A stretch of 62,602 nucleotides of DNA, from NCBI GenBank assembly GCA_944326475.1, contig CALVEC010000014.1, positions 1 to 62,602 of the forward strand. The letters are read 5' to 3'. The DNA is from Candidatus Gastranaerophilales bacterium. GTDB taxonomy: Bacteria > Cyanobacteriota > Vampirovibrionia > Gastranaerophilales > Gastranaerophilaceae. A model generated the notes under the pieces. That model was not told where the DNA came from. It searched no databases and worked only from the letters and a program-made list of their open reading frames with translations. Numbering within the stretch: position 1 is the stretch's first letter; every line of letters starts with the position of its first letter. This document shows, piece after piece, positions 5,093 to 60,405 of the stretch. Made by a program: the position numbers and the translations under genes.

Positions 5093-5218
5093 TTCTCGAA
5101 AAACAAGATACAACCCGATGTTAAGAATTATTAAAATTTAGCGATAAAATAGCAATTTTAAATCTTGATATCTATTAAATAAGTAGAAAATTATACATTA
5201 TTAATAAAGGGGAAAAAT

Positions 5219-18190: not shown

Positions 18191-21100
18191 ATGAGTAAAG
18201 CGAAAAGAAAGCAGCTGATAGCCTCGCTATTGATGCTTAGCTTGAGTTCTTATCCTGCGCTTGCGCAGACTGTGCCGGCTGACTCGATTAATCCCGGACC
18301 CTATAATTCATTCATCTATGTTGATTCAAACAGCACTCAGAATGATCAGATTGAATTTAATGGCATAGAAACTGTTTCAGGTTGGGATTCTAATTTATAT
18401 GGACCGGTCGTTAATTTTTACAGCGGTAAAGATGTAACCTTAAATGGTAAAATTCAAAATTATATGAACAACAAAAGCGGTACACCTGCCGGTTCAACAG
18501 AATCTGTTGGCGGTGCAATTGCCAATCTTGCCAATTCATCGAGTGAGACTTTCACATTGACAGGTGATACAATATCTTTTTCATCAAATTCATCAGATAG
18601 AGGCGGTGCAATATGGAATGAGACCGGTAGTCTTGTATTAGACGCTGCTAATATAAAATTTGAAAACAATGCGGCAAAAGGTGCCGCAGGATGGCAAGAC
18701 GGCGGTGCTATCAATAACATTGACGGAACTGTTTCATTTAAGGATGGGGCAACCGTTGAATTTATCGGCAATAAAGCTGAAAACGGCGGTGTTGGCGGCG
18801 CTATTCTTAATACGTCATTCTTAGCAGATGACAATGGTGTTGTAGATTTAACAAATGTAAAAAGCGCTACATTCTCCAATAACTCAGCAACAAGCGGCGG
18901 TGCTATTGCAAACACAAAAGGACGAACAGGCAGCAATCCGGCTGAGATTAAAATTGCAAACGCAACTTTCAGCAACAACAAAGCAACAGCAAACGGCGGT
19001 GCAGTATATAACGAAACTATTGCAAATTTGACAGCGTCTAAGTTTGAAAAAAACGAATCCGGCACATACGGCGGTGCAATTATGTCTACAGAAGGTTCAG
19101 ATTTGACTATCACAAACGGAACTTTCAATGACAACAAAGTTACTGGCGATATAAAAGCATCATACGGCGGCGCTATTTTCAACCAGGGAAAAATGGAGGT
19201 AAGCGGAAACTTCTCCGGTAACGAAGCCGGCAGAGGCGGCGCTATTTACAACTATACAACTGCAGATACGACAATTAAATCAGGCACGGTTTTTGAAAAC
19301 AATAAATCTACCTATGGTCACGGCAGCGCTGTATATACATTTAACGGCATGACAATTGAAGACGGTGTACAATTCAAAAACAACCACGCAAACTGGGGTG
19401 GTGCACTTGCTGTCGAACTTAGAAAATCGGATACAATGCCAAAGCCTAAAAACGGCACAGTTACTATTGGTGAAAAGGTATTGTTCGAGAAAAATACCTC
19501 CGGTGCAGGCGGTGCTGCTATTGTAAATACAAATGGTAATATAACAATAGAAAATGGTGCAAAATTTATCGAAAACAAATCCGGTGCAGGCGGCGGTGCT
19601 ATATACAACACCAAAGATAATGCAGCCGGTGTTGACTCCACAATTTCATTAGGCTCGGCAACTTTTGAAAATAACTCAACAAAAGGAGACGGTGGTGCTA
19701 TCTATAATGACGACAAATCAACAGTAACTATCACCGGAGAAACGACCTTCAGTGGTAACACTGCAACCGGAAAAGGCGGTGCTATTGCTAACGCAGCTGA
19801 TAGCACAATCACTCTCGATACCACAGCCGGTAATATCACATTCACAGGAAACACTACCGGTACAGATAAAGCTCTAAACGACATCAACACTGACGGTACT
19901 GTTTACATCACGGGTGACACAACAAACACAGTGTCTGTTAACACAATTACCGGTTCAAAAACAGGTTTTATTAATAAAACCGGCGACAACACTCTAGTTT
20001 TGAATGACAACAACAGCGGCTTCCTTGGAAAATTCACACAGACTGGAGGTAAGACCGAAGTTCTGAAAGAATTTTTCGGTGGTACCAATACCATTGAAGA
20101 TAGTTATGTATTTATGAAAGACGGTTCGTCTATAGTTAAAGGTTCTTCTGTAGTTCTTGATGACGGAAGCCTTGTTGTTGACACAAACGCAAATGTTGAA
20201 ATTGCCGGCAGTGTCAGCGCAGTAGAAAATCCTTTAGGTTCCTCATCAGCAGTTAATAACAGCGGTAATTTAGAAATTGTAGAAGGCGGTTCTTTAATTG
20301 CAAATGTTATACAAAGTTCTGCAGACGCCTCTATTACAGTCTACAACGGTGCAACTTTCGGTACCCAACAAGATGATTACGCTATTGCAGCAGGTGCTTT
20401 GACTATTAAAAAAGGTGCTGTTATTGACGGTATCGTTGAAATAACAGAGGCTGTTAAGCTTGATTTTGACGGTGTATCTGCGGTATTTGACCAAGACGGT
20501 CTTCAAGTCGGCGGCGGTCACATTACAAACGAAGGAACATTCAACCTGGCAAATACGGCTATCGGTGTTGAAGATTCCGGTTTGAACGACAGTGTTACTC
20601 TTTCAAACGGTTCATCTCTTGCACCGGTTACTGCAGGTGAAACAACTATACACCTCGGAAACGGCGATTCTGATGACGGAACTCCGACTATTACATACTC
20701 TGATGACGCAGTTACAAATACAGAGCACACATTGAACGTAAACAATGACGCAACTCTGAAACTCGCTCCGACAAAAGGTAATAACTTTGAATTAAATTCC
20801 AAAGTTACCTCTGCTGACGGCGAGGGACAGGTTCTCGTTGACCAGATAAAAGTTAAAAATCCAAATTATGTTGATGATGCAACTACTCCGGATGAAGATG
20901 AATTTATTGAACAGGGCGTAGGAACGATTACTGTAAATTCTGACAACAGCGGTTTTAAAGGAAGCTTCATCCAGAATATGGGTAATCTCATCCTCGCTGC
21001 AGGTTCTAAGTTCTTTGGCGGTAAAAATACAGTAGATGGTGGTTCTTTAACTATCCAAAAAGATGCAATTTTGACAGGTGCTGATGATAATGCTACTAAG

Positions 21101-25890: not shown

Positions 25891-27078
25891 TTAAGCATAA
25901 CCCCAATGGGTTTTCGGGGCAGCAAACACTACCCCCCCCCCCGAAAGTCCGCTTGTGGAGCGGATTTTAGCCACAAGTGCATTAAAAGCTTTAACTGCTT
26001 TTTTCTCAACAAAAATATGAGAAAGCACGCCGATTGATACGCAAATCAAAATGCTTGCCAAGATATTAATATACGGGTGCGCATAAACAAAAGCCTTGTT
26101 TGTCCAGATAAAAGGTTTTTCTATAGCAAAACCAACTTCTTGCATTATGTATATTGCAAAAGTATATTTGCCGAGAAATACAGATATGTTGTTCTCAAAA
26201 AGTTTCGACAATAAACCTTTTTTACACAAAAAGAGAATAAATAAGGCGCAAAATGCAATAATAAACAGTATATCATTACTAAAATGAATCCTATAGAAAA
26301 TTGAATGATAAAGTATAAATACAAAAATATATATTTCTAAAGCAGAAACTCCGATAAAAAACAGTCCGGATTTTATCTTATTTTTTATTTTAAAATTTTT
26401 CACATATTCTGATATAGTATCCCAAAACATGCCCAAAAAGTACCCGAGTCCGAGACTTGCTCCCGCTCGTAAACAAGCGCCTGAAATACCGTTCAGTATA
26501 CGACTATGAGTTCCGGGAATATCTCCATTTCTCCATGTTAAAAGTGCTGTAAATGCATAAAACACAAAAAGTCCAAGCGTAAAATTAAATACTTTGGGCT
26601 TTGTTATACGATATGCATTGTGTAAGAATATACTGCACCAAAATAAAGCACAGACAAACCATGATGACGGATTATTTACCGGATAGCCGGATGGTAAAAC
26701 AGTAAATAAGAAAAATAAATTCAACACATTTCCGTATGTATAAAATTCACAAATATGAAATAAAGACAATACACCAAAAAGAACTATTGAAAAAGCAAGC
26801 AACGGCCATAACCTGATGAACTTATTAATAGCAAACTCCATCGTGTTATCCTGCTTATTTTTTAAATGTGAAAACAGGAAAAAGCCGGCTATAATGAAAA
26901 AGTACTCTACACATAAAAATGTATCAACAACACATTTTTCATATTTCAAATACGGGGCAAAATCAATAAATAAACGCTCCTTGTATACGCTGTAATGAAT
27001 TGTATGTCCAAAAACAATCAAAATTATAAATAAAAAACGCAAAAATTCTATGTTTTTTAATTTTTCAAGCTTTTTCAA
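25891..27078 (-). CDS. Membrane acyltransferase (family 3, OafA-like) with 3' G11 tract
   Basis: A 395-residue multi-pass protein of the acyltransferase-3 family, which typically adds acetyl or other acyl groups to surface sugars. The N-terminus NIEFLRFLFIILIVFGH carries the family's conserved Arg and catalytic His (His25), followed by about ten hydrophobic segments. The start is TTG 27078 with GGAG upstream; the ATG seven bases earlier leads to an early stop. Near the C-terminus 11 consecutive Gs (minus strand) encode SGGGV, just after an inverted repeat TCCGCT-N5-AGCGGA. A length change would alter only the last 13 or so residues. It is the last gene of the 13-gene operon. Confidence 0.88.
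   Translation of the reverse strand: MKKLEKLKNIEFLRFLFIILIVFGHTIHYSVYKERLFIDFAPYLKYEKCVVDTFLCVEYFFIIAGFFLFSHLKNKQDNTMEFAINKFIRLWPLLAFSIVLFGVLSLFHICEFYTYGNVLNLFFLFTVLPSGYPVNNPSSWFVCALFWCSIFLHNAYRITKPKVFNFTLGLFVFYAFTALLTWRNGDIPGTHSRILNGISGACLRAGASLGLGYFLGMFWDTISEYVKNFKIKNKIKSGLFFIGVSALEIYIFVFILYHSIFYRIHFSNDILFIIAFCALFILFLCKKGLLSKLFENNISVFLGKYTFAIYIMQEVGFAIEKPFIWTNKAFVYAHPYINILASILICVSIGVLSHIFVEKKAVKAFNALVAKIRSTSGLSGGGVVFAAPKTHWGYA
25932..25942 (-). repeat. G11 homopolymer in the acyltransferase gene
   Basis: Eleven Cs on the plus strand, hence Gs in the coding sense. The preceding coding bases CTTTCG are the same as those before the G8 tract of the second flagellin. With 10 Gs the frame would stop directly after the tract; with 12 it would run into a different tail. 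Confidence 0.9.
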
Positions 27079-27102
27079 ATTTCATACTCCAAATTCTTTT
27101 TT

Positions 27103-27996
27103 TTATACTTCTTCACTATGCAAAAAACTTGCGGTTTTAATAAGTTTTTCCATTTCCTCATCAGAGAGAGTAACTCCGCTCAATATTTTTGCTCCGTTTG
27201 AATTTATAAGACAAGGTATACTTAAAGCCGTGTCTTTTATTCCGTATTCTCCGTCTAAGACTGTTGATACACTTGTACAAATCGGTATGTCACTGATTAT
27301 TGCCCCGGCAAGCACAGCTGCACAAGTTGCTATGCCGTAAAAAGTTTTGCCCTTGCCGGCAATGATTTCTGCACCCATAGAACGTACATCGTCTTCCATT
27401 GCAGCTTTTTGTGACTCACTCAAACCGCACTCCCCGATTGCACTCCACAGTGGAATCTGGAAGTTTCCGTGCTCTCCTATAACCGGAATTTCAACGTTTT
27501 TTCCGAGGTAATCCGTCAATATAGCGGACAATCTCGATGAATCCAGCATGCATCCCGTACCAAATACCTTGCCTTTTGCAAGATTAAGGTGCTTTGTCAT
27601 ATAGTACGTGATTACGTCTACCGGGTTTGAGACTACAATTACAACACCTGTGTTGTAATAAGTTTTTATATTTTCTGTTATTTCTGCAGCAATTTTTATA
27701 TTGTCCTGTGCTAAGTCCAGCCTGCTTTCGCCTTCTCGTCTGCTTCTGCCTGCTGTTACAATGATAATCGAGCTGTCTTTTATATCTGAATAGTCGCCGT
27801 TAACAAGTTCAGCACAAGGTATATTATGCAGTCCGTGTTTTATATCAAGCAGCTCTGCATTTGCAAGCTTTTTATTTGTATCAATGAAAACAATCTTATC
27901 AGCAAGCCCCCGCATCATAATTGCATAGGCTATCGCAGAACCTACAGCGCCTGTACCGATTATGGAAATTTTTCTTTGGCTTTTTTCAACGTACAT
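27103..27996 (-). CDS. Lactate/malate dehydrogenase family protein
   Basis: A 297-residue NAD-dependent 2-hydroxyacid dehydrogenase. It has the Rossmann motif GTGAVGSAIA (14-23), SNPVDVITY, the Asp152/Arg155 pair in LDSSRL, and the catalytic His176 in GEHG. The substrate loop reads AGRSRREGESRLDL. The residue that is Gln in lactate dehydrogenases and Arg in malate dehydrogenases aligns with Arg86, while the ESRLDL part is LDH-like, so the substrate is uncertain: malate, lactate or another hydroxyacid. It overlaps the LuxC-like gene by 11 bases, placing it in the biosynthetic operon rather than central metabolism. Confidence 0.85.
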   Translation of the reverse strand: MYVEKSQRKISIIGTGAVGSAIAYAIMMRGLADKIVFIDTNKKLANAELLDIKHGLHNIPCAELVNGDYSDIKDSSIIIVTAGRSRREGESRLDLAQDNIKIAAEITENIKTYYNTGVVIVVSNPVDVITYYMTKHLNLAKGKVFGTGCMLDSSRLSAILTDYLGKNVEIPVIGEHGNFQIPLWSAIGECGLSESQKAAMEDDVRSMGAEIIAGKGKTFYGIATCAAVLAGAIISDIPICTSVSTVLDGEYGIKDTALSIPCLINSNGAKILSGVTLSDEEMEKLIKTASFLHSEEV

Positions 27997-29161
27997 CTAT
28001 TATCCTCGATAACTGCGTCAACAGGTCGTATCCGTCCCAGATAACGTCTATGTCCATAGCTTTTCCGACGGGAACTATTCTGTCTATACCGCGCAATTCA
28101 TGTAAAACTATATCTTTTGCAAGTTTTTGAGCATCAATTCCATAATAAGTTACTGTCTGATACTTTTCATCCACCACCGAGAATAGCTCTCCTATATCCT
28201 TCAGTGAATACTCGTAAAAATATCCGGCTTTGCCCCTGAGATTTTCGATATCTTTGTCAAGTTCCGCTATTTCACTTCTGTATAAGAGGTTTTCTGAATG
28301 TTTTACAGATTTTATTTTGTCTGAATAGTCTATTGCGTCCTCACAGAATTTTGTGTATTTGTCTACACAAACGGCATCTTGCAGAACGTATTTTTCATTT
28401 GCTGTCTTATAAACAGCGCTCCAAAATTTCTCACGGGCTTCTTCACTGTCATTTTGCCAGTATATAAGCTGCGGAGAAGAACAAGCGTTTTGATCCATCA
28501 GATACGTGTCGTTATAAAAGTTTTGAGCAAGTCTCTCTATTGAGTTTTCATCAGCTTCTAAAATACTCTGTCCGTCCATTATGCACACAGAATACCTGTC
28601 AGCAAATGCAATGTCTATGCAGCGAGGTTTTGTTTCGCAGGATTTTACGGTCTTTATTGTATTGTCCCCGCCCCAAATCATTCTGGCATCCGCTATTTTT
28701 GAGAATACGGCTGTTGCATCAGATGTTCTGTCGTATTTTACAAAGGTTGTTCTGTCCTTAATGTTGGGATATTTTTCTAATACTTTTTTGAATATTTCAA
28801 CAAGAGCGTCCACTTGAGGAAAATCCTTACTCGGTATCCTGACTATATTTGCGTTGCCGGCAAGCAGAGAAAATACGTATGAAAACGCAAAATTGACCGG
28901 TATATTTGAGGGCGCAATGTGAAAACAAAGCCCTCTGCCAAGTCTGTTTGTTTTAACCGGCGCGGTTTCCTTTATTTTTTGAATATTTGCTTTTCTGCAC
29001 CAGAACGCCAACGCGGACAAATCCGGGTAAATCCGACCTGCCTGCGAGCCTAAAATTTCTTTAGACAGGTCATTTAAAAAATCACAAACCTCATCGCATA
29101 AAGTCGCCATTGGTAAATTTAGTATATTTTCATTTCCGATTAAGTATTTAACGCCGCTCAT
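27986..29161 (-). CDS. LuxC-like acyl-CoA/acyl-protein reductase
   Basis: A 391-residue aldehyde-dehydrogenase-fold protein of the LuxC family, which reduces an activated acyl group to an aldehyde with NADPH. It has PSNIPVNFAFSYVFSLLAGN (about 84-103) for cofactor binding and the nucleophile Cys227 in DQNACSSPQ. In luminous bacteria LuxC works with LuxE and LuxD; here it overlaps a LuxE-like gene by 14 bases, but no luxAB or luxD is present. The aldehyde probably feeds the transketolase or SDR of the same operon (inference). Confidence 0.88.
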   Translation of the reverse strand: MSGVKYLIGNENILNLPMATLCDEVCDFLNDLSKEILGSQAGRIYPDLSALAFWCRKANIQKIKETAPVKTNRLGRGLCFHIAPSNIPVNFAFSYVFSLLAGNANIVRIPSKDFPQVDALVEIFKKVLEKYPNIKDRTTFVKYDRTSDATAVFSKIADARMIWGGDNTIKTVKSCETKPRCIDIAFADRYSVCIMDGQSILEADENSIERLAQNFYNDTYLMDQNACSSPQLIYWQNDSEEAREKFWSAVYKTANEKYVLQDAVCVDKYTKFCEDAIDYSDKIKSVKHSENLLYRSEIAELDKDIENLRGKAGYFYEYSLKDIGELFSVVDEKYQTVTYYGIDAQKLAKDIVLHELRGIDRIVPVGKAMDIDVIWDGYDLLTQLSRIIDVR

Positions 29162-30227
29162 AAGTATCTGAACATCCTCTTATTTCTGCATTTTTTATTC
29201 TGCCTTTTATTTCAAAGTACTTGCCCTTTCTGCCGCACGGACAATCATCTTCGCCGAGTACAACCCCTTCGTCTTCGGTCAGGAGAGAATGACCGGGGTA
29301 CGACTCAGGCAGTACCGATAAAAGCTGTATAATGCCTTTCTCGCCAAACTTGCAGGGCGTAAAATCATACGGATGACGGGTGATAATATCTGAATAATTT
29401 GAGCAGTGCATGTGTCCGTGTTCGCACTGAACAAAAACAGACCCTAGCTGCTCTGCCATGCCGTAATAGTTGTAAACCTTTACACTGCCCATTACATCAT
29501 TTATTGTCTTATTGTAGGTAAATACGTCTACCGCCTCATCTTTAAGCTTTTTCCAGCCGCCTATATGAAACAGGATTCCGTTTTTTATATTAAAATTTAC
29601 GCCTCGCTTTTTCAGTTCTTTTACGACAAACTGCCATATCATGTAGGTATATCCGAACATAAGAATCGGTTCGTCTTTGTGTTTTTCAAGAAATGCAGCC
29701 ACTTTTTCAAAATCAAGGTTCATATCAGAATCAAGTGCATAAACCGTATCACGCCCGAACATAGAGAAACCTATTATGCCGGCGCCGCGGGCAGAAAACA
29801 TAGAGCGGTCTTTTTTTACCATCTCTGTATCCAAAAGAAGCAACGGAAGGCGCTGTTTTCCAATAAATGAAGTGATAATCTCCGTAAGAGTTTTTGACTG
29901 ATTTTTTGTGTTTTGCGCACTCAGATAAATCTTTGAAACAGCCTGTCCGGAGGTGCCTGAAGATGTCATTGTTTTTACAATATCATCTTTGGGACAGCTC
30001 ATAAGGTCATAGAATTTGAACAATCTGACAGGAATAAACGGAAGTTCTCCCGTCGTATGTGTTTTTGTTACATCATACCCAAGTCTGTCAAGAATTTTTT
30101 TGTACTCAGGACAGTTGTTATAATGAAATTCCGTCAATCTGCCGAGTTCTTCCGAAAGCATTTTTTCTTTTTCTTCTTTATTTAGACTGTATGGCTCTAT
30201 TTCAAACAGTTGTTCCAAGTTACTCAT
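29148..30227 (-). CDS. LuxE-like acyl-protein synthetase
   Basis: A roughly 359-residue member of the LuxE/AMP-forming ligase group that activates or accepts an acyl group and passes it to a LuxC-type reductase. ATG 30227 overlaps the GNAT stop and starts MSNLEQLFEIEPYSL; the longer frame from 30278 has no supporting signal. TSSGTSGQAVSKI is the ATP-binding loop. A short C-terminal group CPCGRKGKYFEIKGR resembles the zinc-like tail and hinge of adenylate-forming enzymes. It lies between a GNAT and the LuxC-like gene. Confidence 0.85.
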   Translation of the reverse strand: MSNLEQLFEIEPYSLNKEEKEKMLSEELGRLTEFHYNNCPEYKKILDRLGYDVTKTHTTGELPFIPVRLFKFYDLMSCPKDDIVKTMTSSGTSGQAVSKIYLSAQNTKNQSKTLTEIITSFIGKQRLPLLLLDTEMVKKDRSMFSARGAGIIGFSMFGRDTVYALDSDMNLDFEKVAAFLEKHKDEPILMFGYTYMIWQFVVKELKKRGVNFNIKNGILFHIGGWKKLKDEAVDVFTYNKTINDVMGSVKVYNYYGMAEQLGSVFVQCEHGHMHCSNYSDIITRHPYDFTPCKFGEKGIIQLLSVLPESYPGHSLLTEDEGVVLGEDDCPCGRKGKYFEIKGRIKNAEIRGCSDTYERR

Positions 30228-30816
30228 CAATTTTTCCTTTAATAAATATATCTTCAGGGTCTGAGAAAGAAGCGCCAAGATAGGCGTATAGATTCATAAC
30301 CGCGGTATTTTGAGAGCTTATTCTCCCGTCCAGTTTTTTGTACCCCTTCTCTTTTGCAATTTCTACAGCCCTTGCATACAAAGACATTGCAGCCCCCGTC
30401 AATCTGTATTTTTCATCAACAGCAGCCAGGTGCACAAAAAGCGTTTCTGCGTCTGTCTCTTTTAATGCAAGAAATCCGATTACTGAGTCTTTATAGAAGC
30501 ATACCAAAACATCGTCAAGGTTTTCAACCCATTTTTTTATTTCAATCTCAGCCGCTTTGTTATCTGTTTCAGGAGTCAGATGAAAGCGCCTGTCATAAGG
30601 GAAAGACTTTCTTGCGACTTCAAAAATTTCTTCCTTGTGTTCTTTTGTGCTGACAATATTCAACCTGATGAGTTTTTTCGTGTCTATTGCAAATCGGGAA
30701 AGATTTATCGATACATACAAAGTCCTGTCTGCAAAAAAGTATCCGTCTTTTTGCATACTTATTTCATTATCAGCATTCGCAGGCATTTTGCAGATCTTTG
30801 TTTCTTCTTTAAGCAT
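30220..30816 (-). CDS. GNAT-family N-acetyltransferase
   Basis: A 198-residue protein whose C-terminal part (about 70-195) has the GNAT order: VCFYKDSVIGFLALKE, FVHLAAVDEKYRLTGAAMSL for acetyl-CoA binding, and NTAVMNLYAYLGASF. The N-terminal 65 residues are less typical. It overlaps the AMP-ligase by 8 bases and the LuxE-like gene by 8. The substrate is probably an amino sugar or amine of the pathway product, as in FdtC/WecD-type enzymes (inference). Confidence 0.8.
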   Translation of the reverse strand: MLKEETKICKMPANADNEISMQKDGYFFADRTLYVSINLSRFAIDTKKLIRLNIVSTKEHKEEIFEVARKSFPYDRRFHLTPETDNKAAEIEIKKWVENLDDVLVCFYKDSVIGFLALKETDAETLFVHLAAVDEKYRLTGAAMSLYARAVEIAKEKGYKKLDGRISSQNTAVMNLYAYLGASFSDPEDIFIKGKIDE

Positions 30817-32221
30817 AATACTGCTCCAACGCTTTATACAACGTTTTTCCGGCTTCGTTTTTCGGGATTTCGTCTATGTCTTGAATCCTAAATGCGGCTC
30901 GGTTTAACCCTGTTTTAAGGGTCATAAAATTTAAAACCCGCTCATTATAGCTGCTGTCTGTCAAAAATATACACATACTGTCATCTTTACCGCAGCATGC
31001 ACAGTCGATATTGTCAAAGTTACTTTTTATTAATCTTTCGCTTTCATCAAGATTTACGCGGTTGCCAAAAATTTTTAAGAAACGTTTTTTTCGTCCGACA
31101 ATATAGAAAAATCCGTCTTTATCAAATTTTGCCATATCACCGGTTACAAGTTTGCCGCAGCGTTCATCTCCTTTTTTTAAGTCTTCACCGCACTGAGCAT
31201 AGCCTAAAGTAACATTGTCACCTTCGTAAACAAGCTCGCCTACAGTCTCCGGCGTTGTTATTTCAAGCCCGTTCACATCAATCAGCGAGAATTTGCCGCC
31301 GGGAATTGCAATACCCATACTGCCGTATTTTTCCAGTGATTTTTCAGCCGGAAGGTAAGACATTCTAGCCGTGGCTTCTGTTTGTCCGTACATAACAATG
31401 AACTTTTTGTTTTTTTCAAGCGCCCATTTTGCAAATTTTTCGTGCAAGTCCGGTGAAAGCTTTCCACCAGCCTGTGTTACATACCGCAATGACGGCAAAT
31501 CCATCCTGAAAAATCTCAGACGCTCCAGCATTTCATAAGTGTATGGAACTCCGCCGAAAGAAGTTGCGTTATGCTCTTTAAGCTGCTGCCAGAAATCTTT
31601 TTGCATAAGCCCCTTTTCCGTCAGAATCAAGCATGCGCCTACCCAAAGATGTGTATTTATAATAGAAATACCGTATGTGTAGTTCATCGGCAAGGTAGTG
31701 ATTGCACGCTCTGTTTCATCGAGGTTTAAGTATTCAACAATAGATTTTGTGTTTGCTTCAATATTTTTATAGCTCTGTCTGACAAGTTTCGGGCTGCCGG
31801 TCGAGCCTGATGTTGTCAAAAGAAGCGCCAGTTCATCGTTTAGTTCAAAAGCGCTGTCATACTGCGTTTTAAGCAAGCTGTAGCCGAGATTTTTATAGAC
31901 TTCTTTGCAGTCCGTAAATTCTTCTGCCATTTCTGAGGGAAGATTCAAATAATCCGGCTTGTATGTATCTATGCACTCTTGCAAAAGCTCGGAATCTAAA
32001 TCCGCTTTGAGCATAACAGGTACAATACCGGCATTTAAAAATCCAATATAGCCGACCAGCGAGCCGATTTCATTGCGGCAAAGATTAAAAACAAGACAGC
32101 GCTTGCCGATTGTATCTGTCAGCGAGCGGCAATGCTTGTCAAGTTCTTCGTATGTAATTTTTTGACCGTTTTCTGTGATTAGTGCGGTATTATTTTTAAA
32201 ATTATTTAATTTCCACATCAT
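30809..32221 (-). CDS. AMP-dependent acyl ligase
   Basis: A roughly 470-residue adenylate-forming enzyme that activates a carboxylic acid, most likely to load the adjacent carrier protein. Motifs: TTSGSTGSPKLVRQSYKN (P-loop), YGQTEATARMSYLP, GDMAKFDKDGFFYIVGRKKR and the C-terminal lysine in KNEAGKTLYKAL. Starts ATG 32221 or 32218 (MMWKLNNF) lie inside the ACP gene end, overlapping it by about 20 bases. That overlap and order imply that ACP is its partner. Confidence 0.88.
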   Translation of the reverse strand: MMWKLNNFKNNTALITENGQKITYEELDKHCRSLTDTIGKRCLVFNLCRNEIGSLVGYIGFLNAGIVPVMLKADLDSELLQECIDTYKPDYLNLPSEMAEEFTDCKEVYKNLGYSLLKTQYDSAFELNDELALLLTTSGSTGSPKLVRQSYKNIEANTKSIVEYLNLDETERAITTLPMNYTYGISIINTHLWVGACLILTEKGLMQKDFWQQLKEHNATSFGGVPYTYEMLERLRFFRMDLPSLRYVTQAGGKLSPDLHEKFAKWALEKNKKFIVMYGQTEATARMSYLPAEKSLEKYGSMGIAIPGGKFSLIDVNGLEITTPETVGELVYEGDNVTLGYAQCGEDLKKGDERCGKLVTGDMAKFDKDGFFYIVGRKKRFLKIFGNRVNLDESERLIKSNFDNIDCACCGKDDSMCIFLTDSSYNERVLNFMTLKTGLNRAAFRIQDIDEIPKNEAGKTLYKALEQYYA

Positions 32222-32441
32222 ACTTTGCCAGTATTTCTTTGCCTTTCTCAAATGAACTCAAATCAATAATGTCGTCTGTTTCCATCATAATATCAAAGGC
32301 TTCTTCAATTGCTGAAATCAAACCCATATGTCCTACTGAATCCCAGGCTTTAATATCCTGAAACTTCAGATTTTTTGCTTCTTCGTCAGTAATGCCGAAA
32401 GTATCGGTGAATACTTGCGTATATTTTTCAAGTGTTGTCAT
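32202..32441 (-). CDS. Acyl carrier protein
   Basis: A 79-residue carrier protein with the phosphopantetheine site WDSVGHMGL (Ser35), acidic helices and normal ACP length. ATG 32441 has AAGGAG upstream; the frame runs open for 21 residues more. It is a dedicated copy in a biosynthetic operon, not the fatty-acid ACP context (no fab genes around). It presumably carries the acyl group between the AMP-ligase and the LuxE/LuxC-like proteins. Confidence 0.9.
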   Translation of the reverse strand: MTTLEKYTQVFTDTFGITDEEAKNLKFQDIKAWDSVGHMGLISAIEEAFDIMMETDDIIDLSSFEKGKEILAKYDVEIK

Positions 32442-32452
32442 ATTATTCTCCT

Positions 32453-33415
32453 TTATATATTTTCTTGTATTATTTTTACTATGTTTGGTGCACTTAAACC
32501 GCACTTAGCAAGCATATATGTGTAACTTCCGGCTTTTAAAAATTCATCCGGAATTCCCATTATAATTTGTTTCGGAGCATCAGGGAATACTGCTTTGTAT
32601 TCAGCAACCGCAGCACCTAATCCGCCGATTTTGCTGTGTTCTTCCACTGTTACAATAAGCTTGTGAGTTTTAAATATTTTGTCCAATAACTCTGTGTCAA
32701 GCGGTTTTATTGTATGCATATCTACAACTGTGGTGGAAATTTCTTTTTTTGTCAATGCTCTTGACGCTCTTATTGCTTCATATACCATTGTTCCTGTTGC
32801 GATAATGGCAACATCGGTACCTTCTGAGTGTACAATCGCTTTACCTATTTTATACGCAAAATCTTCTTTGTAAACAGGCGGCTGTCCAGGAACTCCCGTT
32901 AGTCTGATATAAACCGGTCCATTGTGTTCAGCTGCCGCTTGTACAGCCTTTACTGTTTCTGTGCAATCTGCGGGAGACAGTACGGTCATATTGGGGATGG
33001 TTCGCATTATTGCCAAATCCTCGAGTCCGTAGTGGGTGTTGCCAAATGTTCCTCCGGCAAAACCGCTCAACAACCCTGCAACTTTTACATTCAAGTTCAT
33101 ATAGCCCAGTTGGGAACGGATTTGTTCAAAACATCTCATGCTGGCAAAAGGTGCAAAAGTTGAACAAAAAACAGTATATCCGTCATTTGCCAAACCGGCA
33201 GCGATACCTATCATATTTTGTTCGGATATGCCGACATTTATTACTTTTTCAGGGTTTCTTTCTGCATAATTATTAAGTCTGGCAGAATTTATAACATCTG
33301 CGGCAACCACCATTATTTTATTATCCGGGTCTTTAATATCGTTAATTGCTTCCCCAAATGCGCCTCGTGAACTCATACGGGAAAGTTGTGCTGTAGTTTC
33401 GCTATTAATTAACAT
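32453..33415 (-). CDS. Transketolase, C-terminal subunit
   Basis: A roughly 320-residue protein equal to the Pyr and C-terminal domains of transketolase. NVGISEQNMIGIAAGLA holds the catalytic glutamate, followed by FASMRCFEQIR and, in the C-domain, VVDMHTIKPLD and VEEHSKIGGLG. ATG 33415 overlaps the end of the N-terminal subunit gene by 11 bases. Split transketolases of this kind in sugar loci transfer a two-carbon ketol group to an unusual aldehyde. Confidence 0.92.
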   Translation of the reverse strand: MLINSETTAQLSRMSSRGAFGEAINDIKDPDNKIMVVAADVINSARLNNYAERNPEKVINVGISEQNMIGIAAGLANDGYTVFCSTFAPFASMRCFEQIRSQLGYMNLNVKVAGLLSGFAGGTFGNTHYGLEDLAIMRTIPNMTVLSPADCTETVKAVQAAAEHNGPVYIRLTGVPGQPPVYKEDFAYKIGKAIVHSEGTDVAIIATGTMVYEAIRASRALTKKEISTTVVDMHTIKPLDTELLDKIFKTHKLIVTVEEHSKIGGLGAAVAEYKAVFPDAPKQIIMGIPDEFLKAGSYTYMLAKCGLSAPNIVKIIQENI

Positions 33416-34220
33416 TCTCAACCTCTTTCATTGCGTCAGAATATTCTTCATCGGTCATTTTTGAGTTATGCCATATGCTGTTGTTTTCCATAAAGCTTAT
33501 ACCTTTACCTTTTACTGTGTTTGCAATAACAGCCGTCGGCACTTTATTGTTTTTAGCTTTTTCAAAAGCTGCCTCCAGTTCTTCTAAATTATGCCCGTCT
33601 ACTGTTATAATATCCCAGCCGAAAGCTTCTATTTTAGCACCCAAGTCAAAGACCGGCAGTACATTTTTTGAGTCACCGTCATTTTGCATTTTATTGTCAT
33701 CAACAATCACCACTATATTGTCTATCTTTCTGGCGCCGGCAAACATAATCGCTTCCCAGTTGGAACCTTCGTTAAGTTCTCCGTTGCCGACTAATACATA
33801 AACTTTTTTGTCTAAATTTTTTCTTTTAAGAGCAATTGCTGACCCTATCCCGAAAGGCAGCCCCATGCCAAGACTACCCGATGAAACTTCAAGCCCCTTC
33901 TGTTTATTTTGAACGATATGTGACGGGAAATCACTGTCATTTTCACCGAAAGTGTATAATTCATCTTCCGTGATAATTCCAAATTCAGCCAGTGCTGCAT
34001 AAAGAGCAAGTGCACAGTGTCCTTTGCTCAAAATAAATCTGTCTCTGTCTTGAGTATCTTTTCCGATATTTTTAAGCACCCTGCCATACAAAACCGTCAA
34101 AATATCAACACAGGACAAGCTTCCGCCAACATGTGCAGACTTATTTATTCCCATAGCATTTATTATATTTTTTCGTATATTTATTGCTTTTTGGGTTAAT
34201 TGGGTATTTAAATCCTGCAT
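33405..34220 (-). CDS. Transketolase, N-terminal (TPP-binding) subunit
   Basis: A 271-residue protein matching the thiamine-diphosphate binding half of transketolase: AHVGGSLSCVDILTVLY, RDRFILSKGHCALALY, SSGSLGMGLPFGIGSA, the TPP/Mg motif GNGELNEGSNWEA, and ANTVKGKGISFMEN. It begins directly after the SDR stop and overlaps its partner subunit. With LuxC in the same operon, the acceptor is likely to be an aldehyde made in the pathway (inference). Confidence 0.92.
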   Translation of the reverse strand: MQDLNTQLTQKAINIRKNIINAMGINKSAHVGGSLSCVDILTVLYGRVLKNIGKDTQDRDRFILSKGHCALALYAALAEFGIITEDELYTFGENDSDFPSHIVQNKQKGLEVSSGSLGMGLPFGIGSAIALKRKNLDKKVYVLVGNGELNEGSNWEAIMFAGARKIDNIVVIVDDNKMQNDGDSKNVLPVFDLGAKIEAFGWDIITVDGHNLEELEAAFEKAKNNKVPTAVIANTVKGKGISFMENNSIWHNSKMTDEEYSDAMKEVENVN

Positions 34221-34961
34221 TTATCTCAAACCTCCATCAACTCTGATAACCTGACCTGATATAAAAGAAGACAACTCTGATGCCAGAAAAACTGCAGCAC
34301 CGGCAATATCAGCTCCCAAACCAGTGCGTTTTAGTGCAGTAAAATTTGTATATTCCTCAATAATATTGTTTGGTAATTGTTCCAGCATATCTGTTTTTAT
34401 AAAACCGGGAGCCAAACAATTTGCGCGTATGCCTACACTTCCAAGCTCTTGAGCAATTGATTTTGTCATCGTTATAATAGCAGCTTTTGAAGCACCATAA
34501 GCTGATTCTGTAGGATATCCGTTAGCCGATATGGAAGAAATATTTATTATACTTCCAGATTTGTTTAACATCATTAATTTAGTAATATATTGTGTAAACA
34601 GAAATACAGAAAAGAAATTGACTTCAAATATATTTCTTAAGTCTTCTTCTCTCGTCATTTGAAAAACAGTATGTTTTACTATACCGGCATTGTTTACAAG
34701 AATATCAACCGGACGTTTCTCCTTTCTTATGTCCATAACCGCTTTTTTCATTGCATCATAGTCTGTCATATCAAAGAAAAGAGGATTAACATTTACTTCA
34801 TATTCAGATGCCAATTCTTTTGTAAAATCAATAAAAGCATTATCCTGTTTGCGTGCAACCGCCCAAATATTTGCGCCTTGTTTCGCAAACTCTGTTAATA
34901 TTGCTTTCCCTATTCCTCTGTTTGAACCGGTTATAATTGCATTTTTGTTTTTTAACAGCAT
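34221..34961 (-). CDS. Short-chain dehydrogenase/reductase (FabG-like)
   Basis: A 246-residue classical SDR: cofactor motif TGSNRGIGKA (about 11-20), NNAG, the catalytic Ser in NISSIS, YGASK (Tyr/Lys) and the C-terminal ISGQVIRVDGG. It is similar to 3-oxoacyl-ACP reductases but stands in a sugar/acyloin operon, so a ketone or ketose reduction is as likely. Its ATG shares one base with the GT stop (TAATG), and the transketolase follows at once. Confidence 0.9.
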   Translation of the reverse strand: MLLKNKNAIITGSNRGIGKAILTEFAKQGANIWAVARKQDNAFIDFTKELASEYEVNVNPLFFDMTDYDAMKKAVMDIRKEKRPVDILVNNAGIVKHTVFQMTREEDLRNIFEVNFFSVFLFTQYITKLMMLNKSGSIINISSISANGYPTESAYGASKAAIITMTKSIAQELGSVGIRANCLAPGFIKTDMLEQLPNNIIEEYTNFTALKRTGLGADIAGAAVFLASELSSFISGQVIRVDGGLR

Positions 34962-36010
34962 TATATAACTCCTTCTGCCAGTATAAACAGAATTGCAAAA
35001 ATAAGAGCAATACCGAAAAACACTCCTGATAAAATAGCGAAAATTGTAAATAATTTTTGATATTTTTTAAACCTTTTATGAGCAGTAAAAGCAAATGCAT
35101 TATTATCATGTTTTTGGATAATTTTTATTTCCGCAACGATATCCGGAAAAAGTTCTTCCAGGTATACACAGTCTTTAAAACACATATTTCGATAATAAAC
35201 CGAAAAAATTCTTCTTATCTCATTAAAAACAAAACGTTCATATTCATAAGATTTATTAGACAAATTGTTGTAAACATTATAATAGAAATTTGCCAAATAT
35301 CTACCGTTGTTTAACATACATTTTTCATAATCCAGCCAAAAATCACTCCATAAACTGGTTTTGTTTATCCGATATACACTCATAACATCTTGTAATACAA
35401 ACATTTTCCCTTTTTTAGACATTAACAAGTCCATATACCAATCTATCGGTAAAATATTTTTGGGGACTTCTGCCAGAAGATCTGTTTTACAGCGTTCATC
35501 CCAGCGCCAAACCAATGAAGATGTAGGGAAATAATGGTTATAAAATAATTCATCGTGTTTTATTTCTCCACATTTTTTATAGGGATGAGGAAATTTCTTA
35601 GGATCAATACCTTCAAATTTAAATTCACATTGATGAGCACAAATCACATAATCTGTATGTTTTTCCAAAAAATCCACTTGTTTTTGCAGCTTGTTAGGAT
35701 CTGTCCAATAATCATCCCCATCGCAAAATGCAATGTATTCGCCTTGAACTCTGGGAATATTATATTTAAATTGAGGATTAAGTCCTTCTCCTGTCCATTT
35801 GTTTTCACTCTGATATATAGGTTTTATTATATCCGGATATTTTTCTTCATATTCTTTTATAATAGCCTGTGTATTGTCGGTCGATGCATCGTCATGAATA
35901 AGCACCTCATATTCAAAATCGGTTTTTTGCATTAAAAAACCGTCCAGTGTCTGTCTTATATAGTTTTCATGATTGTATGTCGTACAAAGAATAGATAATT
36001 TTACTCCCAT
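34961..36010 (-). CDS. Family 2 glycosyltransferase with C-terminal membrane segment
   Basis: A 349-residue GT-A transferase beginning VKLSILCTTYNHENYI, with EVLIHDDASTDNT and the metal-binding DGDDYW near residue 100. The middle has many Tyr/Phe residues. The last 35 residues (TIFAILSGVFFGIALIFAIL) form a membrane hairpin. It probably adds a sugar on the inner face of the membrane for a surface glycan. It lies between the NeuD-like and SDR genes, with close spacing. Confidence 0.9.
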   Translation of the reverse strand: MGVKLSILCTTYNHENYIRQTLDGFLMQKTDFEYEVLIHDDASTDNTQAIIKEYEEKYPDIIKPIYQSENKWTGEGLNPQFKYNIPRVQGEYIAFCDGDDYWTDPNKLQKQVDFLEKHTDYVICAHQCEFKFEGIDPKKFPHPYKKCGEIKHDELFYNHYFPTSSLVWRWDERCKTDLLAEVPKNILPIDWYMDLLMSKKGKMFVLQDVMSVYRINKTSLWSDFWLDYEKCMLNNGRYLANFYYNVYNNLSNKSYEYERFVFNEIRRIFSVYYRNMCFKDCVYLEELFPDIVAEIKIIQKHDNNAFAFTAHKRFKKYQKLFTIFAILSGVFFGIALIFAILFILAEGVI

Positions 36011-36021
36011 AAATCCGCCTT

Positions 36022-36678
36022 CTATTTAAAAACTTTAGTTGTTTTATCTTTTAAGATTGCTCTTGCAGGATTTCCCAAAACCGTATAGCCATCTCCTATA
36101 TCATTCAATACAACAGCTCCCATACCTATTATTGTATTTGAGCCGATTTTAATCTTTTCTTTAACTGCAGCACTTGCACCTATATATGAGCAAGCACCTA
36201 TCTCGCAATTCCCCGATACGTTAGCACTGCCGGCAAAAACAGAGTGGGCACCGATTGCAGTATTGTGTCCGACGATGCAAAGAGGCATTATGCATACATT
36301 TTCAGCGATATTTGTTTTGCTTGAAATAATAGTATTAGAAAAAATTACACATCCCTCGCCAATCTCTGCTCCGTGATTTATATTTACCGAAGGATGAATA
36401 ATTGTTGCAAGTTTATAATTATGCTCTTTTACTTTCTCAAACAGAATTTTTCTTGTCGCCGGCTCGCCGACTGATATAATAAACTCTATATCTTCCGGTG
36501 AATATTTTTCTATTACCTGATTAAATGAATAAATTTTGCAATTTTCAATATCCTTGTTTTGATCTAAGTCATCAATAAAGCAAATTTCTGTCCAACGGGA
36601 TTCTTTTTTATTTATTGCAATTGCAACTTCATAAGTATCTTCTGCAAAACCGCTTGCCCCGTATATAGCCAATATCAT
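36022..36678 (-). CDS. NeuD-like sugar O/N-acyltransferase
   Basis: A 218-residue protein with an N-terminal nucleotide-binding-like domain (LAIYGASGFAEDTYEVA) and a left-handed beta-helix made of hexapeptide repeats (EIGEGCVIFSNTIISSKTNI onward, about 110-200), ending NPARAIL. This is the PglD/NeuD family, which acetylates sugars such as sialic-acid-like or bacillosamine-type residues. It is one base after the radical SAM gene stop. Confidence 0.88.
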   Translation of the reverse strand: MILAIYGASGFAEDTYEVAIAINKKESRWTEICFIDDLDQNKDIENCKIYSFNQVIEKYSPEDIEFIISVGEPATRKILFEKVKEHNYKLATIIHPSVNINHGAEIGEGCVIFSNTIISSKTNIAENVCIMPLCIVGHNTAIGAHSVFAGSANVSGNCEIGACSYIGASAAVKEKIKIGSNTIIGMGAVVLNDIGDGYTVLGNPARAILKDKTTKVFK

Positions 36679-36679
36679 A

Positions 36680-38041
36680 TTAAAAATCTCCCTTATATTG
36701 TTCGCTGAAATCTTTTGTCGGGACAGATTCTCTTGCCGGGCAGCAATTCATGCAGCCGTGATAGTTTCCGTTTATGAAATTTTTACGCAGTTTTTTATAA
36801 ACAAGGCTGTTGAAAAACTTTTTCCAATCAATACTGTCATTTTTAATAAAATCCGTTAATTTAACATTATTGTTATATCCCCGTAAACAGCATACCTCAA
36901 AATCGCCGTTTGGTCTGAGTCTTAAATGCTTCCAGGGATTTTCGCAGATAATTCTGCCTTTATAATCCATTTGGTGGTATGTTACACTGGTAACTTCTTC
37001 ATAATAAGAATAGTGCTTTTTATTGTGTTTTGCACGGAGCTGTTTTCTTTCTTCAAATAATTTTTCTATAGACATATTTTCCGATAGTTTGTCTATTTCA
37101 GGATATTTTGACTTTAATTCATCCATACTCTTTTGTTCAATCTCTTTTTTTAGTGAATCAAAATCAAACTCCGGTAAAAACATTGTGTAATAAAGCATTA
37201 TTCTGCCTTTAGTGAGTTTTTCTATTTCCGCAATTGTGGTTATTGCACCAAGAAATCCTTCTTTGTCTTGCAGATTCGCATTAAGCAGATTGTCAAAGAA
37301 AAATGTAATCTGCTGCAAGCCCATGCCAAGCGCCATTTTTATAAAATCTTCTACTGTTTCATAGTTTGAAGAATTTAAGACACAAGAAATAGAGGGCTTG
37401 AATGCAAATAAATCTTTTTCTTTTAGCAGCTCCAGATATTGTTTAATATTATTTTGTACTAAAGTAAATACTCCGTCTTTTTCCCATACTGTCTTTTTAA
37501 AGTATTCTTCGCTGACTGCATTTACTGAAAAATTTACACGCATAAGGTTTTCACAAGCAAGTTCCGCCCATTTTCGGCTGAAGGAAATACCATTAGACTC
37601 CAAAAGAATATTAATAGCCGGATAGTTCTTGTTTATATAACTGATATAATCGTAACCTTCTTTTCTAAAAGTGATTTCACCATAGGTGGGAACAAGATTT
37701 GATGTCTTTGCATATAAAGGAACAAGGTAATCGTAAAGCCATTTTTCAGGGATAATTTCCGCTTCTTGTCTTGTTGCAAACTCAAAACAAAATTTACATC
37801 TGCAATTACAGTCACTATTAAAGCTCAACTGTAAAGTTAAATCATCCGGTATACCGACATCAAGCGATTTATCGTGCATTATAAGAAAATCAGAAATTTT
37901 TTCTTTCAAATTAAGACCTTTTAATTTATTAAATCCGGTTTTTTTTACTTTTAATTTCGTCCCTAATACTCTTACAACTTTGTGTTTTCCGTCTTTGTCA
38001 TTTTTAATAGAAAACACTTTTTCCAACAACTTCTCGCTCAT
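36680..38041 (-). CDS. Radical SAM/SPASM protein of surface-glycan locus
   Basis: A 453-residue radical SAM protein. Cys78, Cys82 and Cys85 (CNCRCKFC) form the SAM-cluster motif. The C-terminus has a SPASM-type cysteine set (RPNGDFEVCCLRG, then HGCMNCCPA) for auxiliary clusters. The first 45 residues, with VVRVLGTKLKVKK, resemble a short basic leader found on proteins of polysaccharide loci. AGGAAA precedes the ATG. It is the first gene of the 13-gene operon. The substrate is unknown; a sugar or lipid-linked intermediate is more likely than a peptide, since no small peptide gene is adjacent. Confidence 0.85.
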   Translation of the reverse strand: MSEKLLEKVFSIKNDKDGKHKVVRVLGTKLKVKKTGFNKLKGLNLKEKISDFLIMHDKSLDVGIPDDLTLQLSFNSDCNCRCKFCFEFATRQEAEIIPEKWLYDYLVPLYAKTSNLVPTYGEITFRKEGYDYISYINKNYPAINILLESNGISFSRKWAELACENLMRVNFSVNAVSEEYFKKTVWEKDGVFTLVQNNIKQYLELLKEKDLFAFKPSISCVLNSSNYETVEDFIKMALGMGLQQITFFFDNLLNANLQDKEGFLGAITTIAEIEKLTKGRIMLYYTMFLPEFDFDSLKKEIEQKSMDELKSKYPEIDKLSENMSIEKLFEERKQLRAKHNKKHYSYYEEVTSVTYHQMDYKGRIICENPWKHLRLRPNGDFEVCCLRGYNNNVKLTDFIKNDSIDWKKFFNSLVYKKLRKNFINGNYHGCMNCCPARESVPTKDFSEQYKGDF

Positions 38042-38388: not shown

Positions 38389-39600
38389 TTAGTTCATGGG
38401 TTTCATGGATTCTTCGTAAATTGTTTTTACGACTTCTTTTGTTGCCTCATTCGGTGCAAGACTCAAAAGCAAATCTAATGAAGGCGTAGTAAAACAGAGA
38501 TTTACCAGCTTGTCTACATCGTTTTCACTAAATCCGTCGTCTGTAAGTTTTTGAGTAACACCTACACTGAACAACCATTTTTCAACAAGTTTTGCTGCTT
38601 TTTCAGCCTCATCAGGTGTTCCGTTCAATCCCGGAGCTATCGGCTCGAGAATATCAGCAAGTGTTGCAGCTTTATCGGCATAGATTGCCTTAATTACTGA
38701 AGGCAAAAGCATTGCCAGTCCGAGACCGTGAGAAAGTTCCGGTTTTACAGCACTCAGAGGATGTTCAAGAGCGTGTGTATAGTGGAGCATGCCGTTGTCA
38801 AAGCCAACCCCGCCCAGCAATGAAGCGTACAAAAGATAATATCTCGGCTCAACATCTTCAAGATTTTTCAGAGCTTTCGGAAGATATTTTGCAACGAGTC
38901 TTATCGTTTCTTTTGCAAGTGTGACCGCATAAGGAGAAGCTACTTTTGAAGTTGCACCTTCTATGACATGGTTTACAGCATCAATTGCTGTATACATTGT
39001 CTGATTTTTTGACAATTTTGTCATCAATTGCGGGTCGTCAATTGAATATGACGGATAGATGCAGTCATAAGCAATTGCCGGCTTAAAGTTCTTTTCAAGA
39101 AGGGTTGCAACAGCAAATCTGTTGACCTCCGTACCGGTTCCGTGTGTCAGGTTTATCGCAACAATCGGAGCTGCTTTTTCGACAGAAAATTTATATTCGT
39201 ATAAATCGGCTGCTGTTTTATCCGGATATTCAAGCAAAATTGCAACGCTTTTTCCTGTATCAATCGGAGAACCGCCGCCAATTGCGATAACCGCTTTTGC
39301 ACCAAACTCTTTTGCCTGTGCTGTCGCTTCGTCGATTGCTGCAGTCGTTGGATTAGGGGTAACCTTTGCATAATTTACATAACCTATCCCGTTATTGTTC
39401 AGGGCTTTTTCTACATAATCCCACGCGCCGGTTGATTTATATGCGTTTCTTCCGCTGACGACAATAACTTTATCAATGCCTTTTTTCTTCAAATCAGAAG
39501 CAATATCTTCAATTTTTGTGATTGCACCGGCACCGAAAAATACGTTGGTTTTTACTCTTATCTCCTGAATCTTGTTTATATCAACATCTTTTTCCCACAT
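38389..39600 (-). CDS. Iron-containing alcohol dehydrogenase
   Basis: A 403-residue group III (Fe-dependent) alcohol dehydrogenase that reduces aldehydes with NAD(P)H. It has AVIAIGGGSPIDTGKS for NAD binding and the metal ligands in HVIEGATS, HYTHALEHPL and LSHGLG. AAAGGAAAG precedes the ATG. It is a single-gene unit with its own terminator. It fits ethanol-type fermentation; a role in the aldehyde chemistry of the adjacent operon is possible but not required. Confidence 0.92.
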   Translation of the reverse strand: MWEKDVDINKIQEIRVKTNVFFGAGAITKIEDIASDLKKKGIDKVIVVSGRNAYKSTGAWDYVEKALNNNGIGYVNYAKVTPNPTTAAIDEATAQAKEFGAKAVIAIGGGSPIDTGKSVAILLEYPDKTAADLYEYKFSVEKAAPIVAINLTHGTGTEVNRFAVATLLEKNFKPAIAYDCIYPSYSIDDPQLMTKLSKNQTMYTAIDAVNHVIEGATSKVASPYAVTLAKETIRLVAKYLPKALKNLEDVEPRYYLLYASLLGGVGFDNGMLHYTHALEHPLSAVKPELSHGLGLAMLLPSVIKAIYADKAATLADILEPIAPGLNGTPDEAEKAAKLVEKWLFSVGVTQKLTDDGFSENDVDKLVNLCFTTPSLDLLLSLAPNEATKEVVKTIYEESMKPMN

Positions 39601-50737: not shown

Positions 50738-50880
50738 CTACCCTATCAGTGACAAAACTATTGACGCGTGGAGGTTTTGGGATTGCGCGAGGAGCGCGGA
50801 GGAGGTTTGCTGGAGAATCTGATTCTTCACAAAATCCGCCGACTCATTCGCAATATCCGCGTCCATAATGGTCGATTTTG
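50641..50880 (-). repeat. 240-bp block shared by both flagellin 3' ends (copy 1)
   Basis: Nearly identical to 60166-60405 over the same 240 bases with no length change. It spans the downstream palindromes (CCCCAAGCCGGGG and CCCCAGCTCGGGG types) and the last 48 or so codons of the flagellin. Confidence 0.85.
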
Positions 50881-60262: not shown

Positions 60263-60405
60263 CTACCCTATCAGTGACAAGACTATTGACGCGTGGAGGT
60301 TTTGGGACTGCGCGAGGAGCGCGGAGGAGGTCTGCTGGAGAATCTGATTCTTCACAAAATCCGCCGACTCATTAGCAATATCCGCGTCCATAATGGTCGA
60401 TTTTG
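60166..60405 (-). repeat. 240-bp block shared by both flagellin 3' ends (copy 2)
   Basis: Counterpart of 50641-50880, equal length and almost identical, spanning palindromic elements and the C-terminal codons. Confidence 0.85.

Follow-up and report, generated by a model that had tools for sequence, protein, structure and literature searches.

LuxC and LuxE have been listed for years in flagellin glycosylation islands without an assigned role. In the Aeromonas group II island, genes for an acyl carrier protein (ACP), a 3-oxoacyl-ACP reductase, an AMP-synthetase, LuxE and LuxC are followed by a family 2 glycosyltransferase (GT2) gene, and the flagellin glycan of A. piscicola carries an unidentified 102 Da moiety (PMC7874193). 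In Dickeya zeae EC2, a luxC-luxE-fadD-tktA-tktB-fabG-acpP cluster lies beside fliC (PMC7575072). Here we analyzed a 13-gene operon that joins such genes to a split transketolase (TK) in a Candidatus Gastranaerophilales genome (GCA_944326475.1; 2.14 Mb, 35 contigs, 98.7% complete). The operon runs on the minus strand from 38041 to 25891 of contig CALVEC010000014.1, whose full 62,602 nucleotides are referred to as the window. Its 13 open reading frames (ORFs) overlap their neighbors by at most 17 bp or are separated by gaps of at most 24 bp. The ORFs and their Pfam and NCBIfam matches confirmed this arrangement, as well as every gene family named in a first-pass annotation of the locus.

All seven gene families of the D. 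zeae cluster were present in the operon, as compared by gene content. Both loci encode LuxC, LuxE, an AMP-ligase, a split TK, FabG and ACP together with an acyltransferase and a glycosyltransferase. The D. zeae cluster differs in adjoining fliC, in its gene order, and in that no GNAT, LDH or radical SAM protein is named in it. The five-gene Aeromonas cassette was likewise represented in full, in the order ACP-ligase-(GNAT)-LuxE-LuxC with the short-chain dehydrogenase/reductase (SDR) upstream of the N-terminal TK gene, but the Aeromonas cassette lacks a TK and is flanked by pse genes. The window annotation contained neither pse genes nor maf; a MptE/Maf-like protein is encoded on contig C5 and NeuB on contig C1. 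As in luxCDABE (7xc6), LuxE and LuxC are adjacent and retain their catalytic cysteines, whereas their sequences are distant (LuxE 1.8e-17, LuxC 4e-6) and the window encodes no luciferase or LuxD. The bacterial luciferase family (PF00296) had no match anywhere in the genome, which sets the locus apart from a bioluminescence lux operon and bears out the initial argument that, with no luxAB, light is not the purpose.

The gene set is best described as a variant of a widespread, already described set, which occurs beside fliC in D. zeae and, as a core without TK, in flagellin islands of Aeromonas and Enterobacteriaceae. No characterized product of the set was found in the literature, including for the matching D. 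zeae locus. Literature searches that combined LuxE and transketolase with either O-antigen or glycosyltransferase returned nothing relevant. By analogy, the 102 Da moiety is an interesting candidate for the product of the core genes. For the Aeromonas group II and Enterobacteriaceae islands, the authors suggested a liposugar on the basis of gene names, in which the genes would supply a fatty acid or fatty aldehyde to lipidate the flagellin glycan. This seems improbable for the window operon, which encodes no ketosynthase, dehydratase or enoyl reductase for chain building. It would also leave the TK unexplained and make the thioester reductase LuxC superfluous, as acylation has no need of it.

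We propose that a surface glycan is decorated by the operon with an uncommon building block, either a small substituent or a unit resembling a deoxy-ketose, a reading to which we assign a probability of roughly 0.5. The ligase would load an acid onto ACP, from which it would pass, probably as the free acid, to LuxE. LuxE would activate the acid, hold it as a thioester and hand it to LuxC, which would reduce the acyl thioester to an aldehyde. The split TK would add a two-carbon ketol unit to this aldehyde, giving R-CH(OH)-CO-CH2OH, and the SDR encoded beside the TK would reduce the ketone. GNAT, NeuD-like, acyltransferase-3 and GT2 proteins would then attach the product or acylate it further. 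A surface glycan is the probable destination, and we lean slightly towards the LuxC aldehyde as the acceptor of the TK.

A scan of 84,980 species returned at least 575 LuxE relatives, and the best 80 plus three plasmid loci gave the 83 loci examined. Phylum-level LuxE matches other than L037 were excluded as a different LuxE type (~25% identity, no ligase, ACP or TK nearby). ACP, ligase, LuxE and LuxC were found together in nearly all of the 83 independently fetched loci, and because of this recurrence their grouping exceeds chance. The co-occurrence of families across genomes, put forward as a check on the locus, therefore held for the core, and a split TK gene (TktN or TktC) was present in 42 of 83. 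LuxC immediately followed LuxE in 77 of 89 cases, and the gene immediately upstream of LuxE encoded the ligase in 45 cases, a type II thioesterase in 14 and a GNAT protein in 13. Carriers included Spirochaetota, Alphaproteobacteria, Lachnospiraceae, Oscillospiraceae, Synergistota, Bacteroidota, Treponema, Helicobacter, Duganella, Flavobacterium and others. Within the host family, LuxE occurred in just 7 of 191 sampled genomes. The window LuxE shares 72-74% identity with spirochaete and alphaproteobacterial copies versus ~60% with several other Gastranaerophilales, a pattern that points to horizontal transfer.

The residues needed for the proposed route from acid to aldehyde are conserved among these relatives. 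The ACP (32202..32441) is a weak call (NCBIfam 6e-5; no Pfam match at 0.001) with its phosphopantetheine site at Ser35, and the corresponding serine in the DS motif was found in 64 of 64 copies. The AMP-forming ligase (30809..32218; Pfam AMP-binding 1e-46) has a catalytic Lys458 that was kept in 80 of 80. LuxE (29148..30227; Pfam LuxE 2e-54) has a C-terminal acyl-accepting Cys352, conserved in 87 of 88 and aligned to the Gly-Cys-Ser of 7xc6 LuxE; both the domain and the cysteine identify it as a LuxE. LuxC (27986..29161; Pfam LuxC 3e-30) was identified in the same way by its domain and its catalytic Cys227, conserved in 77 of 77. The window LuxE scored 71.5 bits against the 550-bit cut-off of the NCBIfam LuxE equivalog, placing it in a distinct subfamily. 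The longest listed ORFs of ACP, the ligase and LuxE begin further upstream than the likely starts, which were refined to 32441, 32218 and 30227, respectively, by reading the ORF list against the sequence.

The TK is encoded by two genes, one for the N-terminal, thiamine diphosphate (ThDP)-binding subunit TktN (33405..34220; Pfam Transketolase_N 1e-40) and one for the pyrimidine/C-terminal subunit TktC (32453..33421; Pfam Transket_pyr 4e-36). The solved structure nearest to TktN is the split TK of C. hydrogenoformans (6yak, 1.8e-58). We aligned 47 cluster copies of TktC with human TK, the Carboxydothermus split TK (6yaj/6yak) and the genome's other TK, with human and E. coli residues equated by their spacing in the alignment. 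The ThDP site was retained: E366 and F392 were present in 47 of 47 TktC, and H77, N185 and H258 in 44 of 44 TktN. The Mg-binding Asp155 was Asn in the window TktN and in 10 of 44 TktN. The acceptor pocket had changed. Human H416 (E. coli H461) was lost in all 47 copies, as was D424 (E. coli D469), replaced by Leu, Ser, Phe, Val, Ala, Cys or Gln. R474 (E. coli R520) was Gly in 43 of 47, and S345 (E. coli S385) was Phe, Leu or Tyr in 23 of 47. The window TktC itself has H416 replaced by Leu, D424 by Phe and R474 by Gly.

D424/D469 is the residue that contacts the 2-hydroxyl of the acceptor. Two histidines contact the C1 hydroxyl of the donor; the one at human position Q428 (E. coli H473) was retained in 46 of 47 copies and His110 in 35 of 44, so a ketol donor should still fit. 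Judged against EC 2.2.1.1, the ThDP and catalytic residues were those of a transketolase, and the acceptor residues D469, H461 and R520 were not. The genome's other TK and 12 TKs from the host family have the canonical H...GEDGASH, and readable non-cluster TKs of the family keep S, H, D and R at the four pocket positions. These pocket changes are new in this analysis. They very probably mean that the acceptor of the cluster TK is something other than a sugar phosphate, and the loss of the residues that recognize sugar phosphates and alpha-hydroxyaldehydes, around an intact ThDP site, is what would be expected if, as first suggested, the enzyme acts on a different aldehyde. Directed evolution of E. 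coli TK altered three of these positions: the variant S385Y/D469T/R520Q accepts aromatic aldehydes, and along its lineage the preferred acceptors shifted away from phosphorylated aldehydes, first to polar and aliphatic ones and finally to non-polar, aromatic ones (PMC5073344).

The division of this TK into two genes is no oddity in this lineage. The only other TK of this mesophilic genome, on contig C1 (94785-98276; L010), is also split, and the three Transket_pyr matches in the genome are the operon TK, the contig C1 TK and DXS. In the literature, by contrast, Carboxydothermus has been presented as the one bacterium whose sole TK is encoded by split genes (PMC7661550).

Cluster-type TKs were found only with LuxE, both in the host family and among the best plasmid matches, as the proposed tie between TK and LuxE/LuxC would have it. 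When the window TktC was compared with 182 genomes of the family, close copies (E 8e-94 to 4e-89) occurred only in LuxE carriers, after which E values dropped to 4e-67 and weaker, the range of ordinary TKs. In the plasmid search, Rhizobium plasmids in the LuxE list accounted for the top nine TK matches (E <1e-79) and for the lower-ranked CP090550.1. TK is a housekeeping family, and its presence could in principle be an accident of operon composition, with the enzyme serving pentose metabolism unconnected to LuxE/LuxC. We consider this extremely unlikely, given the separate canonical TK on contig C1 and a cluster TK that tracks LuxE and lacks the sugar-phosphate residues.

The TK belongs to an exchangeable module. 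The module is usually accompanied by a core-type SDR, and in 33 of 46 cases this was the gene next to TktN on its upstream side; in the window this FabG-type SDR (34221..34961; Pfam adh_short_C2 2e-58) precedes TktN and TktC. An acetolactate-synthase-like ThDP enzyme was present in 10 of 83 loci and a NeuB-like protein in 12 of 83; most of these loci had both, and most also had a FabZ-like protein. The solved structure nearest to this ThDP enzyme is JanthE (8rph, 4.8e-93), a YerE-like carboligase. Examples of the FabZ-like/YerE-like/NeuB-like module beside a LuxE-LuxC core are L059, L077, L091, L101, L106, L109, L112 and L120; this module is as interesting as the TK module, and we found no characterization of it in the literature. 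TK never occurred together with a YerE-like or a NeuB-like protein (raw Fisher p 5e-4 and 8e-5, ignoring descent). On the tree, the eight supported independent pairs that contrast TK with YerE all pointed one way (median p 0.25). The remaining 28 of 83 loci had neither a TK nor a YerE-/NeuB-like module, and half of these had an SDR.

On the LuxE tree, the three module states change at least 34 times, with at least 11 changes between TK and YerE/NeuB, so modules have often been exchanged. The same-genus locus L024 illustrates this directly. Relative to the window, its LuxE is 99% identical, LuxC 97%, the ligase 96% and ACP 94%, with GNAT within 94-99%, and its TktN, TktC and SDR are merely 44-48% identical, the break lying near the TktC stop codon. 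The TK module was swapped between these two operons and the core retained. In further copies of the core, the YerE-like/NeuB-like module seems to replace the TK, and this substitution by another ThDP carboligase supports the reading in which the TK extends the LuxC aldehyde. The place of the TK in the set is thus confirmed in part: it is a recurrent component, and an optional one, with half of the core loci lacking it. A constant core and an exchanged carboligase module (SDR-TK, YerE-like/NeuB-like or SDR only) would yield strain-specific products from a common kind of aldehyde.

The nature of the replacement module also bears on the main rival, in which the acceptor is a keto-sugar. The TK would add a hydroxyacetyl branch to it, parallel to YerE in yersiniose formation, and LuxE, LuxC, the ligase and ACP would make a separate glycan group. 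The substrate of YerE is a CDP-4-keto-sugar, and the split-gene TKs of miharamycin and amipurimycin have been proposed to act on keto-sugars (PMC12247030). The likeness to the latter, drawn from their description, is a split TK in a specialized sugar pathway; they differ in belonging to Streptomyces nucleoside antibiotics, with a proposed keto-sugar acceptor. YerE-like carboligases of yersiniose and erwiniose O-antigens, like JanthE, are ThDP enzymes of surface-glycan loci and transfer units of two or more carbons, but they belong to the decarboxylase family and their known or proposed acceptors are keto-sugars. Sugar aminotransferases or dTDP-sugar genes are also present in many of the loci. 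Against sugar branching, the window operon encodes no nucleotidyltransferase or 4,6-dehydratase. Nor does this model call for the top-scoring TK matches to lie solely in LuxE carriers, as they do in the family and on plasmids. In some loci (L062, L071, L078, L099, L114), LuxE-LuxC is present twice and SDR-TK up to twice, against one ACP and one ligase; in L071 and L062, the extra SDR-TK copies go with the extra LuxE-LuxC. On balance, we consider a keto-sugar acceptor unlikely, at about one chance in five.

The second point at issue is where the ligase acts. The first-pass annotation had placed ligase and ACP before LuxE and LuxC, which is one of two orders considered here. By its position, the type II thioesterase ahead of LuxE is a likely analogue of LuxD, which suggests passage from acyl-ACP through the free acid to LuxE. 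In the opposite order, a dicarboxylic acid would first be reduced at one of its carboxyls by LuxE and LuxC and then extended by TK and SDR. The ligase would load the finished acid onto ACP through its other carboxyl, and GNAT, NeuD or acyltransferase-3 would use it to acylate a sugar at N or O. Acyltransferases of the GNAT family between ligase and LuxE and the frequency of aminotransferases in the loci are compatible with such an ending, and oxalate and malonyl CoA ligases are among the best PDB matches of the ligase.

The LDH-like gene (27103..27996; Pfam Ldh_1_N 1e-35) adds to this case. At position 102 of the LDH/MDH superfamily, Gln specifies lactate and Arg specifies malate. The window protein and 11 of 11 aligned relatives have Arg at this position and none the Gln of a lactate enzyme, so that the superfamily first named for it stands and the lactate type gives way to the malate dehydrogenase type. 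Because Arg102 is present in all aligned copies, a dicarboxylic 2-hydroxy or 2-oxo acid is the likelier substrate, as a reversed order would have it. Yet the LDH/MDH gene is optional, present in just 12 of 83 loci, and PDB similarity is a poor guide to ligase substrates. The thioesterase ahead of LuxE is at least equally consistent with an acyl group leaving ACP for LuxE. We therefore regard the reverse order as an outside prospect, on a par with sugar branching.

Several observations weigh against a small LuxC-derived substituent as the product. The changed TK pocket would equally suit a keto-sugar. The mutual exclusion of TK and YerE is not significant once relatedness is corrected for, in a test of low power. 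The core must be useful without a TK, since half of the core loci have none. A ligase and ACP alongside LuxE are redundant unless they handle different acids or serve different ends of the pathway. The genome contains no PF00975 thioesterase, and the operon has a GNAT gene at that place. As the nearest relatives that the search retained, the 83 loci do not form a random sample, and no biochemical study or characterized product of the cassette was found in the literature. As a whole, the initial reading is partly supported. The residues, the association of TK with LuxE and the modules speak for it; the set proved not to be new, and the lactate type, the order of steps and the target are not upheld.

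As to the target, the first suggestion had been a surface polymer or the flagellum, and no neighboring Maf or nonulosonate locus favors either: nowhere in the genome do such genes adjoin the operon. We considered a general link to the flagellum through gene neighborhood and rejected it, as flagellin (L105, L108) or Maf genes (L086, L123) flank few of the 83 loci. Flagellin as the specific target is somewhat unlikely.

Homopolymeric tracts provide a different kind of connection. With lengths taken from the assemblies, the window contains three G/C tracts of at least 8 versus ~0.2 expected. One is a G11 tract (25932..25942), a possible slippage site near the 3' end of the acyltransferase-3 gene. 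The genome has 14 tracts of at least G10, of which 12 lie just past a flagellin N-terminal domain, one in an AlgX/AlgJ-like gene and one in the operon acyltransferase. The genome encodes 23 flagellin N-terminal domains, and flagellins with G10+ tracts are found on contigs C2, C4, C6, C7, C16, C21 and C34 and in the window (52115-52125). Many of the tract-bearing flagellins read as frames of 160-190 aa, and 50738-52549 reads as 603 aa; this large flagellin family is probably phase-variable. The poly-G tracts link the operon acyltransferase with these flagellins, with an on/off effect that is putative: the part of the gene that encodes the enzyme domain ends before the G11 tract, and slippage would alter only the last ~5-20 residues. 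The same-genus locus L023 has an 11-base tract (5894-5904) at the same 3' place in the homologous gene.

Tracts were also seen elsewhere. In L083, TktC contains a G9 tract (2311-2319) and is split over two frames; its homologue in the related L084, with G10 (5182-5191), is intact. In the alphaproteobacterial cluster copy L052, 12 G/C tracts were counted, with lengths between 8 and 11. A G12 tract stands at the start of the AlgX/AlgJ-like gene, which has a DHHW motif as read by eye (C2 119636-122645; L176). The window flagellin at 60263-62445 is split at a G8 tract (61962-61969) into overlapping frames of 171 aa and 585 aa, and in L170 the reading of a similar flagellin goes on in a different frame, where repeats resemble, by eye, GLUG motifs.

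The remaining operon genes, all on the minus strand, include those that would attach or decorate the product. The first encodes a radical SAM protein (36680..38041; Pfam Radical_SAM 5e-9) with no tblastn match in the fetched same-genus relatives, and is thus a variable gene. It is followed by a NeuD/PglD-type sugar acyltransferase (36022..36678; Pfam PglD_N 2e-12; NCBIfam TIGR03570 (NeuD) 8e-56) and the GT2 glycosyltransferase (34961..36010; Pfam Glycos_transf_2 3e-25). Between ligase and LuxE lies a GNAT acyltransferase that is weakly WecD-like (30220..30816; Pfam 6e-10; NCBIfam WecD model 2e-6), and the last gene encodes an acyltransferase-3 membrane O-acyltransferase (25891..27078; Pfam Acyl_transf_3 8e-26). 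An Fe-alcohol dehydrogenase gene (38389-39600) lies 347 bp upstream of the operon. Promoter and terminator scans gave results no better than shuffled sequence. Elsewhere in the window, 18191-23647 encodes a repeat-rich protein of 1818 aa, autotransporter-like in appearance, that begins with a signal peptide and contains many copies of NN..GGAI/GGAVYN motifs.

Our data tentatively suggest a wider picture, which we hold with slightly less than even confidence. A widespread, undescribed family of split TKs, remodeled at the very positions chosen by engineers, may act as carboligases on LuxE/LuxC aldehydes to form acyloin- or deoxyketose-type substituents, in a modular system that may be phase-variable in some lineages. 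The link gives these TKs a testable prediction, namely that they accept aldehydes lacking both a phosphate and an alpha-hydroxyl group. Such a role, if real, would explain the presence of light-operon reductases in glycan loci and would offer enzymologists a natural library of aldehyde-accepting transketolases. It would also point to substituents of a new class on the surface glycans of gut bacteria.

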